DNA of 64,000 nt from assembly GCF_040451425.1 (NCBI RefSeq), contig NZ_CP144374.1:186001-250000 (forward strand), read 5' to 3'. How positions within the stretch are numbered: the first letter of the stretch is position 1; every line of letters starts with the position of its first letter. The position numbers were made by a program, and so were the translations under genes. The DNA is from Thermodesulfovibrio sp. 3462-1. GTDB taxonomy: Bacteria; Nitrospirota; Thermodesulfovibrionia; Thermodesulfovibrionales; Thermodesulfovibrionaceae. The notes beneath the pieces were generated by a model. The model was not told where the DNA came from. It ran no database searches and saw only the letters and a program-made list of their open reading frames with translations. Of this stretch, positions 22,467 through 57,869 are shown in pieces.

Positions 22467-23738
22467 TTATAAATCTTTGAGTCCGTATTCATTTATTTTG
22501 TTTCTCAATGTTCTCACACTTATTCCAAGAATTTTTGCAGCCTTTGTTCTATTTCCCTGAGTTTTCTTAAGAGCGTCAATTATTAAATCCTTTTCTGCAT
22601 CTTTTATTTTGCCAATTTTTATTGATTTTTTTCCCTCAAAAAAAATCTCATCCTCAGGAACCCTTAATTGTCCATCTGGACTCAGGACAGCAGTCCTGTA
22701 AATGAAATTTTCAAGTTCTCGGACATTGCCCTGCCAGGAATTTTCAAGTAAGTATTTTTTCATCTCCTCTGTAATGATGAAATTTTTTGACATCTTATTT
22801 GAAAGCCTCTTTAAAAAAAACTCAGCAAGAGGAATAATATCTTCAGTTCTTTCTCTAAGTGGAGGAATTCTTAATGGAAATACATTTATTCTATAAAAGA
22901 GATCTTCTCTGAAATTGCCTTTTTTTACCTCCTCCCAAAGGTCTTTGTTTGTTGTAGCAATTATTCTTACATCTACACGAACAGGTTTTGTACCACCAAC
23001 TCTGTCAACTTCCTTTTCCTGAATAACCCTTAAGAGCTTTGCCTGAAGTCTATATGCCATCTCACTTATCTCATCAAGAAGAATTGTTCCTCTATTGGCA
23101 AGCTCAAATTTACCTAACTTTCTTTCAGTAGCTCCAGTAAAGGCTCCTTTTTCATGTCCAAAAAGCTCTGCCTCAAGAAGTGTTTCAGTAATGGCTGCAC
23201 AATTTATTGCAACAAAAGGCTGATTTGCTCTCGGGCTATGCTTGTGAATGTATCTTGCAATAACTTCTTTACCAACCCCGCTTTCTCCTGTTAGCAGGAC
23301 TGTAATGTCTGTTTTTGCTATTTCTCTTGCAATTTCAAGGATTCTTCTCATTTGTGGAGCCTCTGCAACAATTTCATCCTCTTCAGGGATAAGCCTGAAG
23401 ACAAGAGATTTCAGAGTATCCATTGAAAAAGGTTTCATAATATAGTCCACTGCACCAAGCTTCATTGCTTTCACAGCATCTTCAACAGAGCCATATCCTG
23501 TAATCACGATTACAGGAGTAAAAATTCCTCTTTTTCTTATCTCAGCAAGAAACTCAAGACCACTCATTCTGGGCATTTTTACATCAGTTATGATCAAAGA
23601 GAAATCACTCAGGTTAACTGATGAAAGAACATAGGAAGGGTCTCTGTAATAATGAGAAGCAAAGCCAAAACGAGACATTGCCTCTTTTAGGGCAAAGCCC
23701 ATGTCAGGTTCATCATCTATTATAAGAACAGATTTCAT
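22467..23738 (-). CDS. sigma-54-dependent response regulator (FlrC/FleR-like)
   Basis: A 423-residue NtrC-family activator. The receiver domain (1-120) has the acidic pair DDEPD near the N-terminus and the phospho-acceptor in LIITDVKMPRMSG at about 54. The AAA+ domain carries Walker A GESGVGKE at about 154 and the sigma-54-contacting GAFTGA at about 200. A Fis-type HTH (NRTKAAKILGISVRTLRNKI) ends the protein. Directly downstream of a PAS kinase and directly upstream of flgB, it most likely activates the flagellar sigma-54 promoter, as FlrC does. Its ATG overlaps the kinase stop by 4 bases. Confidence 0.9.
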   Translation of the reverse strand: MKSVLIIDDEPDMGFALKEAMSRFGFASHYYRDPSYVLSSVNLSDFSLIITDVKMPRMSGLEFLAEIRKRGIFTPVIVITGYGSVEDAVKAMKLGAVDYIMKPFSMDTLKSLVFRLIPEEDEIVAEAPQMRRILEIAREIAKTDITVLLTGESGVGKEVIARYIHKHSPRANQPFVAINCAAITETLLEAELFGHEKGAFTGATERKLGKFELANRGTILLDEISEMAYRLQAKLLRVIQEKEVDRVGGTKPVRVDVRIIATTNKDLWEEVKKGNFREDLFYRINVFPLRIPPLRERTEDIIPLAEFFLKRLSNKMSKNFIITEEMKKYLLENSWQGNVRELENFIYRTAVLSPDGQLRVPEDEIFFEGKKSIKIGKIKDAEKDLIIDALKKTQGNRTKAAKILGISVRTLRNKINEYGLKDL

Positions 23739-26403: not shown

Positions 26404-27373
26404 TGTCTTTAATGCCAAGTCTTTTCATTTTTTCAATAAGTGTTGTTCTGTTTATGTTAAGATACCTGGCTGCTCTACTTTTAATCCATCTATGCAGATT
26501 TAAGGCATGTAAAATTAGCTTTTTCTCGTACTCCTTTAAAACTTCATTAAGGTCTATTCCTGCACTGAAGGGATTTATATCGTCAGAAACTGTTTTTGGA
26601 AGTAAACTTTCCCCGAATTTTATTTTTTCAGGAAGGTCTTCCACAGTAATAACTCCACCATCATTTAAAACATAAAGTCTTTCAATTAAATTTTCAAGTT
26701 CACGGACATTTCCAGGCCAGTGATAGTTTAATAAAACTTCCATTGCCTCTTGCTTGATCTGCAGTGAATAGCCAAATTTTTTTGAAAACTTATCAATAAA
26801 ATAATCGCAAAGAAGGGGTATATCTTCTTTTCTTTCTCTCAATGGAGGAATTACTACAGGAACAACATTCAGTCTCCAGAAAAGGTCTTCTCTGAATCTT
26901 CCTTCTTTTACTTCATTTTCTAAGTCTTTGTTTGTTGCTGCTATAATTCTCACATTTACATGAATAGACTTAGTTCCTCCTATTCTTTCAAAAGCTTTCT
27001 CCTGAAGGACCCTTAATATTTTTACCTGAAGATGAACGGGCATGTCACCTATTTCATCAAGAAAGATTGTTCCTTCATTTGCAACTTCAAATCTACCAAG
27101 ACGCTGGGTATTTGCGCCAGTGAATGCTCCTTTTTCATATCCAAAGAGTTCTGATTCAAGAAGTTCGGAAGGTATGGCAGCACAGTTAACAGGAATAAAA
27201 GGCTTTTCTGCTCTCAGGCTTTTAAGATGAATCATCTTTGCAACAAGCTCCTTACCTGTTCCGCTCTCTCCCATTATCAAAGCAGTGGTATCAGTTCTTG
27301 AAAGCTTATCAATAAGTGTGAGAATTCTTTTAATTTGAACTGATTGCCCTACAATCACAATTTTATCCTTCAT
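26387..27373 (-). CDS. sigma-54 activator lacking a receiver domain (FlrA/PspF-like)
   Basis: A 328-residue activator comprising almost only the AAA+ and DNA-binding domains. Walker [13 protein letters not shown] is at about 38, GAFTGA at about 84, and GEIG/DEIGDMP Walker B lies near 104. The Fis-type helix-turn-helix ([20 protein letters not shown]) ends the protein. With no receiver or sensor domain it should be active constitutively or be controlled by a partner protein, as PspF is. It heads the transcript containing the TPR protein, kinase and response regulator, so it may be the top flagellar regulator. The ATG at 27373 lies in a perfect palindrome and has no Shine-Dalgarno sequence; TAATAT at 27386-27391 could be a -10 box of a leaderless transcript. 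Confidence 0.85.
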
Positions 27374-46036: not shown

Positions 46037-47448
46037 TGGTACTTGAACAGAAAACTGAGTTAAGGCTTACGCAGAAACTGGCACTTACACCGCAGCTTCA
46101 GCTTCAGCTAAAGCTTTTACAGTTACCACAGCTTGAACTCAGTCAGTTTATTGAACTTCAGTTAATGGAAAATCCTATGCTTGAAATAGATGAAGAGACT
46201 GAAAACAATCATGAAAAAGAAATTTCAGAAGAAATTGAAGAACCCATAGCAGTTGATAAATTAGAAAAGATAATGATAGATGAATATTTTGCTGAAAGAG
46301 CTGATGATGGTAGAGATCTTGGCTATTTTACCCCAGGCATAGAGGAAAAGCCTTCCTTTGAACTTTTTTATTCAACGACCTCTGACCTCTGGGAATATCT
46401 CCTGTGGCAACTAAGATTAAGCAAGGCTTCAGATGAAATAAGAGCAGTGGCAGAGATAATTATTGGTAACATTGATGAAGACGGATATCTTAAGGCAACA
46501 GAGGAAGAAATAGCAAAAATTGCAGATACAAATATTGAGACTGTAAAGAAAGCAATTGAACTTGTTCAGGAATTTGATCCTCCAGGAGTTGGCGCAAGGG
46601 ATATTAAAGAATGTTTAATCTTGCAGATAAAAGCACTTGATCTTGGAAATACTCTTGTTCAGTTTGTTGTTGAAGAGCATCTTGAAGATATAAGAAAGAA
46701 GAAATATGAAACCATAGCGAAGAAATTTAATGTCTCTATTGATGAAGTCATTAAAGCAGTAAAAATCATAGAGAAACTTGAACCAAGACCCGGTAGAAAT
46801 TTTTCTAAAGCACAGGTGAACATTCCAGTTCCTGATGTTTATGTAAACAAAGTTGAAGGTGAATATCAGATTATATTGAATGACGAAGGAATTCCAAAGC
46901 TAAGGTTAAGCAAACTTTACAGGGAGCTTTTTACAGAAAAAGATTTATCTTCTGATGAAAAGAAATATCTGAAAGAAAAATTTAAAAATGCTATAGAGCT
47001 TTTAAGAAGCATAGAGCAGAGAAATAGAACAATTTACAGAGTAACTGAAAGTCTGATCAAATTTCAGAGAGAGTTTTTTGATAAAGGTGTTAGCTATTTA
47101 AAACCCCTCAATTTGAAGGATGTAGCGAGTGATCTCGGACTTCATGAAAGCACAATAAGCAGGGTAACCTCAAATAAGTATCTTGCCTGTGAACATGGTG
47201 TATTTAATTTCCGATTTTTTTTCAGCAATGCCTTGCCATCCAATCATGGAAGTGTTTCCACTACTTTTGTAAAGGAGCTAATTCAAAAAATTATAAACGA
47301 GGAAAATCCAGCAAATCCTCTTTCTGATCAGGAAATTTCAGATATGTTAAAAAAACAGGGTATAGATATTGCCAGAAGAACTGTTGCAAAATATAGAGAA
47401 GAGCTTAAAATTCCACCAAAATCTTTGAGAAAACTAAAAAATTATTAG
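46036..47448 (+). CDS. rpoN: RNA polymerase sigma-54 factor RpoN
   Basis: A 470-residue sigma factor for promoters with -24/-12 elements. The glutamine- and leucine-rich region I (QKLALTPQLQLQLKLLQ) that contacts activators is at residues 14-30, the acidic region II follows, and the core-binding domain contains DPPGVGARDIKECL at about 180. The DNA-binding domain has DVASDLGLHESTISRVTSNKY, and the RpoN box ARRTVAKYRE lies at about 450. Position between lptB and hpf is usual. The window also contains two activators with GAFTGA motifs and a matching promoter. Confidence 0.97.
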   Translation: MVLEQKTELRLTQKLALTPQLQLQLKLLQLPQLELSQFIELQLMENPMLEIDEETENNHEKEISEEIEEPIAVDKLEKIMIDEYFAERADDGRDLGYFTPGIEEKPSFELFYSTTSDLWEYLLWQLRLSKASDEIRAVAEIIIGNIDEDGYLKATEEEIAKIADTNIETVKKAIELVQEFDPPGVGARDIKECLILQIKALDLGNTLVQFVVEEHLEDIRKKKYETIAKKFNVSIDEVIKAVKIIEKLEPRPGRNFSKAQVNIPVPDVYVNKVEGEYQIILNDEGIPKLRLSKLYRELFTEKDLSSDEKKYLKEKFKNAIELLRSIEQRNRTIYRVTESLIKFQREFFDKGVSYLKPLNLKDVASDLGLHESTISRVTSNKYLACEHGVFNFRFFFSNALPSNHGSVSTTFVKELIQKIINEENPANPLSDQEISDMLKKQGIDIARRTVAKYREELKIPPKSLRKLKNY

Positions 47449-55340: not shown

Positions 55341-57083
55341 TTATCCTGTTATTACCGGAGGTTTTACTCCGTGGAAGAATATATAGGATATCAACAAACC
55401 AATCCAGAGAATGAATCCAAAAAGACATATCAGATAGACAAGGGCAAGCTTTCCAATACCCTCTTCCCAGAGTTTTCTAAAGTCAGACATTACTCCGATT
55501 GTAAAGAATGTGATCAAGAAGAAAAGCACTCTCAAGGCATTTGTTCCTGCTGTTGATACAGATGTTTGAGAAATAATTTTCTTTGCGTCTTTTACACTTG
55601 CTTCTAAATCTTGAATTTGTTTTTTCTTTGCATCAATTTGTGCTGTTAAGGTTGCCTGTTGTGCTGGGTCCGTAACTTGAGTAAGCTGCTTTTCAATTGT
55701 TGTTATTTCCTTTTTGATTTTGTTTACCTTTCCTTCAACAGAGCCAACTTTTGGAGCATACGGAATAGCAATGACAAGAATAACTATAAAGGTAACAGCA
55801 TATGCTATGACGAATTTTGGAAATCTTCTCCATATTTCTGTTGCAGAGACCCTTTCTCCAGGTCTGCATTCAATTTTTGCACACCATATATAGGCAAGTA
55901 TGAATGCCCAGATACTGATAAATATATCAATAAAAAGCTTTGTCGTTGATGCTGCCATTAGCATCCATCCTGGCTCATACTTAATCCCGGCAGCAGTTTC
56001 TGCTTTTGCTCTTATAAGGGCATCAACAACTGCACCTGATGCAAAGGCTGCACCATCTGTCTTAACTGCAAGTCCCATCCATGCACCAGCAACCATTGGC
56101 TCTTTCCAGAGGAAAGCTTGAGCAAAGAAAGGAAGAATAATGAGCTCAACAACTGCAAATATAACAACCAGTGAGCTTACCATAATCGGAACAACAGGCC
56201 TTGCTTTAATTGCTCCACCTGTTGCAATTGCTGCAGAAACACCACAAATGGAGATTCCAGATGCAAGTGGAGCTGCCCATTCTTTACTGAACTTAAACCA
56301 TTTTCTCGCAATCCAATAAACCAATGCCCAGTAAATGAGATAGGCTTCAATTATGGCGCAGAGTCCTCTGAAAAGTACTGCCTGTGCAAGTCCAAATGAT
56401 TGAGCTGCTTTTAATCCAAGTAATGCGCCCATTAAACCAATTGCGGTTTTAATGTAAAACTCTGGTTTTAATGCTTCACCAATGAATTTTGCAAAACCTC
56501 TGAAGAAATTACCAACAATCAAGCCAAGTAACAGAGCAAATATAAAGCCACCTTCACCTGTAAGTTTCAATGACCATGGAATATTGAATTTTTTAGCATC
56601 GGTTGCTGCAAAATAAGCATAATGACCAATAAACCAGCACAGATAGCTCAACCAGAAAACAAAGAAGAATCCAATATTGAATTTTACTATATTAGCTCGC
56701 ATGAGTGCTGCACCGATTGTGAAAACTACAGCCATGAAAATATAGGTAAGCACAAGAGATGCAAATCCTGAAAGCCCTTTCTTTTCATAGGTGTCACCAA
56801 CTTTGTATTTTGTTGGATCAGAGACTGTTACAGTTTCTTCTTTCCCGTCAGGTTTCTTGATGGTTAGTTTGTTCCCATCAATTTTTGTAATTTCACCCTT
56901 CAGGCTTTGATAAACTTTTCCTGTTGGAGCAATTGCCTTGCTTGAGTCTGTCCACTCTTGTGTAGAGACAACCCATCCTAAGGGATCAATTCCTGTGTAA
57001 GCCAGCAGAGAAATTGCAAAAATCACAATAGCTAACCAAAAGGCTAACCAATCCTCACTAACACCTTTCTTTTTTTCTTCCAT
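55341..57083 (-). CDS. YeiH/UPF0324-family transporter with extra domains
   Basis: A 580-residue inner-membrane protein. The core (about 105-440) matches the YeiH family often annotated as putative sulfate exporters: LGLIVGNFFRGFAKFIGEALKPEFYIKTAIGLMGALLG, ASGISICGVSAAIATGGAIKA and AGAWMGLAVKTDGAAFASGAVVDAL. Typical members are near 340 residues. Here an extra N-terminal membrane helix (13-32) is followed by a soluble beta-type insertion (about 40-104, with GEITKIDGNKLTIKK), and a coiled coil (about 448-504) separates the core from the last two helices. AAGGAGGATG precedes the start. In a sulfate- or sulfur-respiring organism anion or sulfonate export would fit, but the substrate is not known. 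Confidence 0.82.
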   Translation of the reverse strand: MEEKKKGVSEDWLAFWLAIVIFAISLLAYTGIDPLGWVVSTQEWTDSSKAIAPTGKVYQSLKGEITKIDGNKLTIKKPDGKEETVTVSDPTKYKVGDTYEKKGLSGFASLVLTYIFMAVVFTIGAALMRANIVKFNIGFFFVFWLSYLCWFIGHYAYFAATDAKKFNIPWSLKLTGEGGFIFALLLGLIVGNFFRGFAKFIGEALKPEFYIKTAIGLMGALLGLKAAQSFGLAQAVLFRGLCAIIEAYLIYWALVYWIARKWFKFSKEWAAPLASGISICGVSAAIATGGAIKARPVVPIMVSSLVVIFAVVELIILPFFAQAFLWKEPMVAGAWMGLAVKTDGAAFASGAVVDALIRAKAETAAGIKYEPGWMLMAASTTKLFIDIFISIWAFILAYIWCAKIECRPGERVSATEIWRRFPKFVIAYAVTFIVILVIAIPYAPKVGSVEGKVNKIKKEITTIEKQLTQVTDPAQQATLTAQIDAKKKQIQDLEASVKDAKKIISQTSVSTAGTNALRVLFFLITFFTIGVMSDFRKLWEEGIGKLALVYLICLFGFILWIGLLISYIFFHGVKPPVITG

Positions 57084-57174
57084 ACTTCATCCTCCTTCTC
57101 TTAAAAATTTTAATAAAATAAAGTAAAGTGCATTTTCACCCCCTCTCTTCAGAAAGAAGATTCACTTTAATTTA

Positions 57175-57190
57175 AGCAAAATATATACCA
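57175..57190 (-). promoter_or_regulatory. sigma-54-like promoter of the YeiH-like transporter
   Basis: On the minus strand TGGTATATATTTTGCT has GG and GC exactly 10 bases apart and a full TTGCT -12 box, but the CAC after TGG is missing. The start would be near 57164, with an 80-base leader to the transporter ATG. The two palindromes lie about 75 and 107 bases upstream of this start, a usual enhancer distance. Confidence 0.45.
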
Positions 57191-57230
57191 GAATAAAAAG
57201 CAGGAAAAATCAAAAAATTTTTTCATTTAT

Positions 57231-57246
57231 GTTACTTTGCAGTAAC
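57231..57246. promoter_or_regulatory. palindromic operator A
   Basis: GTTACT-TTGC-AGTAAC, a perfect 6-4-6 inverted repeat. It has a near-copy 32 bases downstream. The binding protein is unknown. Confidence 0.65.
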
Positions 57247-57262
57247 AATTTTTTATTTATAT

Positions 57263-57278
57263 GTTACTTTATGGTAAC
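57263..57278. promoter_or_regulatory. palindromic operator B
   Basis: GTTAC-TTTATG-GTAAC, the same half-sites as operator A with one outer-spacer mismatch. Centres are 32 bases apart, about three helical turns, so two dimers would sit on one face of the DNA. Confidence 0.6.
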
Positions 57279-57374: not shown

Positions 57375-57404
57375 TTGACAAAAAAATTTCTTTTGCTTTA
57401 ATAT
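57375..57404 (+). promoter_or_regulatory. sigma-70 promoter of speD-speE
   Basis: TTGACA at 57375-57380 and TAATAT at 57399-57404 with an 18-base spacer. Predicted start near 57411, just before a hairpin in the leader. Confidence 0.7.
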
Positions 57405-57413
57405 ATAAAGTTT

Positions 57414-57432
57414 ACAGGGGCTTTGTCCCTGT
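57414..57432 (+). promoter_or_regulatory. leader hairpin upstream of speD
   Basis: ACAGGG and CCCTGT form a 6-base stem around a 7-base loop right at the start of the predicted transcript. The Shine-Dalgarno GGAGGAGG follows 13 bases later. It may affect stability or translation; it is too short to be a known riboswitch. Confidence 0.4.
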
Positions 57433-57461: not shown

Positions 57462-57869
57462 TTGTATGCTTTAGGGACCCATCTTTTAATTGAATTAAAA
57501 AATTGCAATCCCGAGATCCTCAAAGATCTCGAAAGCGTCCAAAAAATTCTTGTAGATGCTGCCAAAAAAGCAAATGCAACAATCATTAATGTAAATTTCC
57601 ATGAATTTAATCCTTTTGGTATTAGTGGAGTAGTAGTTATTGCTGAGTCTCATCTGACGATTCATACATGGCCTGAGTATGGTTTTGCTGCAGTGGATGT
57701 ATTTACCTGTGGAGATACTATAAAGCCAGAGATTGCAGCTCAATATATTATAGAAGCCTTTGAATGTGAATCTCCCTCAATTGTTGAAATGAAAAGAGGT
57801 ATAATTTCTTACAAAAACGAGAAATTACCACATAAGGTATGTCATGAAGAATTGCAAATGGTATATTGA
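57462..57869 (+). CDS. speD: S-adenosylmethionine decarboxylase proenzyme (bacterial class)
   Basis: A 135-residue pyruvoyl enzyme precursor that makes decarboxylated SAM, the aminopropyl donor for spermidine. Self-cleavage should occur before the serine of AESHLTIHTWPE (about residue 63-74), leaving a pyruvoyl group. The catalytic histidine and cysteine are in the same segment and in VDVFTCGD at about 80. The start is TTG at 57462, giving MYALGTHLLIEL; GGAGGAGG lies 7-8 bases upstream and the N-terminus then aligns with Thermotoga/Bacillus-type SpeD. The gene overlaps speE by 26 bases. Confidence 0.93.
   Translation: MYALGTHLLIELKNCNPEILKDLESVQKILVDAAKKANATIINVNFHEFNPFGISGVVVIAESHLTIHTWPEYGFAAVDVFTCGDTIKPEIAAQYIIEAFECESPSIVEMKRGIISYKNEKLPHKVCHEELQMVY

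Follow-up and report, generated by a model that had tools for sequence, protein, structure and literature searches.

Enhancers of the NtrC type, such as those of glnA, consist of tandem palindromes located roughly 75 to 110 bp upstream of a −24/−12 promoter and spaced by whole helical turns. The sigma-54 operons of Desulfovibrio include transporters of the PSE family, two of which share their regulation with lactate genes (Kazakov 2015, PMC4641369). Sigma-54 control of PF03601/PSE transporters is already known in Desulfovibrio. In other Desulfovibrio species, the motif of DVU0539/DVU0946 precedes DVU0943 orthologs as well as a gene for a split-Soret cytochrome c (Rajeev 2011, PMC3333781). In the open-licence literature, we found no description of a sigma-54 regulon in the Thermodesulfovibrio lineage and none of a palindrome/activator/transporter circuit in Nitrospirota. 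Here, we analyze a window of 64,000 nucleotides from Thermodesulfovibrio sp. 3462-1 (positions 186,001 to 250,000 of contig NZ_CP144374.1; genome designated G000), in which two palindromes are very probably the enhancer sites of an NtrC-type two-component activator that would drive a PF03601 transporter via sigma-54.

The putative regulated gene (55341-57083, minus strand) encodes a membrane transporter of 580 residues, which matches PF03601 (Cons_hypoth698, putative sulfate exporter family) at 74.3 bits for a cut-off of 24.5. Most of its close orthologs carry the label Nitrospiraceae or Nitrospirae. Many genomes of the order encode separate small proteins, of about 90-110 residues, that are similar to residues about 52-103 of the transporter, as at G000:C1:1080145-1080291 (minus strand). 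The transporter gene is faced by a sigma-54 −24/−12 element, TGGTATATATTTTGCT (57190-57175, minus strand), with GG-N10-GC spacing; the sequence of the element, TGGTATATATTTTGC, is close to TGGCACG-N4-TTGC. If the C at position −12 is nucleotide 57176, the predicted transcription start is near 57164. The proposed mechanism needs RpoN, and the genome contains one RpoN match, whose DNA-binding part lies within the window (46963-47433, plus strand; G000:C1:232963-233433; PF04552, 203.8 bits). Both palindromes are exact, with no strand assigned. The proximal site, GTTACTTTGCAGTAAC, occupies positions 57231-57246 (centre 57238.5) and the distal site, GTTACTTTATGGTAAC, positions 57263-57278 (centre 57270.5). 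The centres are 32 bp apart and fall at about −75 and −107 with respect to the predicted start, in full agreement with a preliminary description of the locus.

A genome scan for GTTAC-N6-GTAAC, which had been proposed in that description, retrieved this pair as the sole exact sites in the 1.82 Mb of G000. The reversed control pattern gave three exact sites against these two, and single palindromes with at most two mismatches gave 12 matches in the window for 12.25 expected, so that single palindromes were not in excess over controls, either in the window or in the genome. The case therefore rests on pairing and conservation: the part that is not due to chance is that the two exact sites lie 32 bp from each other and next to a sigma-54 element, in an arrangement that is conserved. 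No second target was identified in G000, in which one-mismatch sites are present elsewhere.

Full-length orthologs of the transporter were present in nine genomes of the genus, including G000, and the unit formed by the palindromes and the sigma-54 element was kept in eight of them, some of the sites being partly degraded. Two palindromes and a TGGYA-TTGC element were found upstream of the transporter in G000, G012, G002, and G014; one full palindrome and a partner altered at one or more positions in G011, G001, and G009; and changes in both sites in G013. The distal site has an exact counterpart in G012, G002, G014, G011, and G009, and a counterpart with one mismatch in G001 and G013. The proximal site is degenerate in G011, G009, and G013, and the degeneracy of one or both sites in these three genomes counts against the enhancer reading. 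In G000, G012, G002, G014, and G001, the proximal site is centred 49-50 bp upstream of the GG of the sigma-54 element, and in G002 the unit is internally intact at a distance from the gene that exceeds by about 150 bp that seen in the nearest relatives. The element itself, as TGGYAY-N5-TTGC, is present in all eight genus genomes harboring palindromic sites. Lack of conservation, which was one part of what the preliminary description would have taken as refuting its proposal, was thus not observed, even though the sites are degenerate in some genomes; the layout that it had likened to enhancer sites of a sigma-54 activator gains support from the conservation in the genus of the pair, its spacing, and the sigma-54 element. 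The ninth genome, G005, encodes the transporter and has neither the palindromes, nor the sigma-54 element, nor an ortholog of the candidate activator described below. In place of the unit, a sigma-70-like sequence, TTGCAA-17-TATAAT, lies upstream of the transporter gene (L052, 3865-3893), the promoter having apparently been exchanged and the activator lost. No palindromes or element were found at the locus of a metagenome-assembled genome labelled Syntrophobacterales (L048), whose transporter is 88% identical, and in some Desulfobacterota transporter orthologs that have a GG-N10-GC element, inspection revealed no palindromes of the GTTAC-N6-GTAAC type.

The candidate activator, which the preliminary description did not name, is a response regulator of the NtrC type (G000:C1:1779722-1781086) comprising a receiver, an AAA+ sigma-54 interaction domain, and a Fis-type helix-turn-helix (PF00072, PF00158, and PF02954), with GAFTGA in its sequence. 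As expected for a cognate kinase, the gene of the candidate sensor, a membrane histidine kinase with Tll0287-like, HAMP, PAS, HisKA, and HATPase_c domains (G000:C1:1781083-1783044), lies upstream of the activator gene and overlaps it. The kinase contains the motif CLICHG (CxxCH) and may therefore possibly carry a c-type haem. Since a large distance separates the activator and transporter genes in G000, the link between the two rests on orthology and co-occurrence. In two related families, f8 (G022 and G034) and f12 (G026), the kinase and activator genes are contiguous with the transporter gene and directly upstream of it; palindromes and a sigma-54 element precede the transporter in f8 and in G026. 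In G037 and G046, the activator and kinase genes are a few kilobases upstream of the transporter. The best match in G000 to the f8 and f12 activators is C1:1779722-1781086 (64-67%), the next full-length match being at 47% or less. In the related families, the palindromes are of the type GTTCCC-N4-GGGAAC or of mixed types, for example GTTGCCAGAAGGTAAC. In Thermodesulfovibrio, where the sites are of the GTTAC form, the recognition helix has the sequence SRKALWEK (SRKTLWEK in G013 and G009). Nearly all of the orthologs read from outside the genus, where the sites mostly take the GTTCC form, have SRKVLWKK (SRKVLWSK in G181). Site and recognition helix may plausibly have undergone a linked change of specificity. 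Two more genes for sigma-54 activators lie in the window (22872-23372 and 26855-27355, both on the minus strand), one encoding a protein with a receiver domain and the other a protein of 345 residues without it.

An ortholog of the candidate activator (72-100% identity) is present in all eight genus genomes that keep the unit. A degenerate pattern of the palindrome pair, run without reference to genes over 246 Nitrospirota genomes, was detected in 18 of these genomes (4 for the reversed control), and an activator ortholog, defined by an E value of at most 1e-140, in 29. Both were present in 14 of the 18 pair genomes (p about 8e-12) and, outside the genus, in 9 of 13 (p about 1e-8); these p values are computed as if the genomes were independent, an assumption that does not hold, and the significance is therefore overstated. 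Outside the genus, the pair lies within 200 bp of the activator gene, on its downstream side, in all nine cases of coincidence. A PF03601-like gene was found within about 5 kb downstream at at least 14 of the 20 non-genus activator loci. As would be predicted for upstream enhancer sites, the pair is thus conserved at a fixed distance and co-occurs with an activator. The joint loss of sites and activator in G005 further strengthens the enhancer reading, as does the fact that kinase, activator, sites, and transporter lie next to one another in other families. At loci L192 (G069) and L207 (G027), palindrome pairs of this kind adjoin other, non-orthologous sigma-54 activator genes.

It is unlikely that the palindromes are instead bound by another sigma-54 activator of G000. 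Such proteins do exist, since 14 PF00158 matches above 80 bits were found in this genome, i.e. 13 besides the candidate, and two of the four pair genomes that had no activator ortholog at the E-value threshold have their pair near other activator genes. However, orthologs of C1:1779722-1781086 are the only ones that adjoin the same arrangement of sites and transporter in other families, and their presence or absence tracks that of the sites, this tracking having been examined for those orthologs only.

The divergent neighbor of the transporter gene is speD (57462-57869, plus strand; PF02675), which encodes S-adenosylmethionine decarboxylase and is accompanied by speE. The preliminary description raised the possibility that speD, whose promoter is about 100 bp away, is repressed through the palindromes, which would then be operators; we find this proposal highly improbable. 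The palindromes do sit in the shared intergenic region, and a sigma-70-like promoter, TTGACA-18-TAATAT, precedes speD (57375-57404, plus strand; 10 of 12 consensus positions), a type of match that was no more numerous than in shuffled sequences in the consensus scan. However, speD neighbors the transporter in G000, G012, and G002 only, indicating that the unit belongs to the transporter, with which it stays in G014, G011, G001, G009, and G013, where speD is not a neighbor. In addition, the spacing is fixed with respect to the sigma-54 element of the transporter and G000 contains no further exact site. Repression of speD is therefore not supported, and we judge this gene to be outside the circuit. 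The speD leader contains a hairpin, ACAGGGGCTTTGTCCCTGT (57414-57432, plus strand), followed by a T-rich stretch just before the ribosome binding site, which has no match in Rfam.

There is just as little to recommend an ordinary repressor, or an activator of the CRP/FNR kind, working together with a sigma-70 promoter next to a coincidental GG-N10-GC: palindromes of 16 bp whose 5-bp arms flank a 6-bp gap are similar to sites of the CRP/FNR type, but the consensus scan revealed no sigma-70-type promoter between the palindromes and the transporter, the TGGYA-TTGC element accompanies the palindromes in every genus genome that has them (with a perfect TGGCACG-N4-TTGC in G014) and is missing in G005, and the partner gene encodes a sigma-54 activator. 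Readings of the GTTAC/GTAAC half-sites as NikR-like or CRP/FNR-like were dropped in favor of the activator linkage. An Rfam search of the intergenic region gave no match. The transporter leader contains a Shine-Dalgarno-like element, AGGGGGTGA (57136-57144, minus strand), located 61 nucleotides before the start codon and apart from the true ribosome binding site. Elements of this AGGAGGTGA type occur 60-90 nucleotides before the transporter start in the genus and in the f8 orthologs, as well as in G005, which is devoid of the sigma-54 unit. In several relatives outside the genus, the element precedes a start-stop mini-ORF (ATGTCTTGA in L027, ATGACCTGA in L028, ATGACCTAG in L029, ATGATCTGA in L033, and ATGACATGA in L053). 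It may be an mRNA-stabilising or a leader-ORF element.

The candidate activator appears to have other targets in the genus. The 580-residue transporter was not found in G004, G010, and G008 (G010 being just 63% complete). The activator is intact in G004 and G010, which indicates that it is not a one-gene regulator, and the G008 copy contains one in-frame TAG (G008:C40:3205-4545, L120). In these three genomes (L135, L136, and L137 for G004, G010, and G008, respectively), a palindromic site and a sigma-54 element precede an operon consisting of a Usp gene, a gene for a 439-residue PF03601 paralogue, and another Usp-like gene (Pfam assignments for the G004 copies), apparently because one regulated transporter was exchanged for another. 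The PF03601 paralogue is also present in G015, a genome of 66% completeness. In G001, a site and a sigma-54 element precede a gene of an unclassified family followed by a PF09719 cytochrome-like gene, and in G002 a sigma-54 element and a palindrome lie upstream of the PF09719 ortholog. PF09719 proteins with haem motifs are presumably of the split-Soret cytochrome c kind.

Sites, element, conservation, co-occurrence, adjacency in other families, and domain content were read directly from the genomes, whereas any statement on binding, phosphorylation, activation, transcript start, signal, or substrate is one that we infer. The membrane kinase, with its Tll0287-like sensor domain, HAMP, and PAS, probably phosphorylates its co-encoded response regulator. 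Activated dimers would bind both palindromes, on the same helical face and three helical turns apart, assemble into a hexamer, and open the promoter through contact with the sigma-54 polymerase at TGGTATATATTTTGC; production of the PF03601 transporter would then be confined to conditions in which the signal is present. More tentatively, and with the odds somewhat against it, a redox- or haem-responsive two-component system, made up of the Tll0287-like sensor kinase and the NtrC-type activator, could control an interchangeable PF03601 transporter, Usp, and multihaem redox proteins in Nitrospirota, the site having drifted from GTTCCC-N4-GGGAAC to GTTAC-N6-GTAAC in Thermodesulfovibrio along with a change of the helix from SRKVLWKK to SRKALWEK. 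Two anonymous palindromes are thereby turned into a proposal for a complete circuit, comprising sensor, activator, sites, promoter, and target, in a sulfate-reducing lineage. This circuit suggests that a signal perceived outside the membrane may induce PF03601 transporters, and the related genomes provide a series in which site, activator, and target were gained, lost, or swapped together.

Comparison with the known systems reveals both likenesses and differences. The transporter shares with PF03601/PSE (YeiH-like) transporters a family match above the cut-off, and is distinguished from them by its length of 580 residues, with extra N- and C-terminal regions. DVU0539 and DVU0946 of D. vulgaris are likewise NtrC-type two-component activators of a sulfate reducer, and their targets resemble the set described here, in which G001 and G002 have a PF09719 cytochrome-like gene downstream of a site; the phylum differs, and the kinase of the present system has a Tll0287-like domain. 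The Desulfovibrio motif is given in figures, and GTTAC/GTAAC is absent from the text of PMC3333781 and PMC4641369. The layout is the same as that of the NtrC sites at glnA, with tandem palindromes before a −24/−12 promoter, whereas the recognition sequence differs, being GTTAC-N6-GTAAC here and GTTCCC-N4-GGGAAC in the related families.
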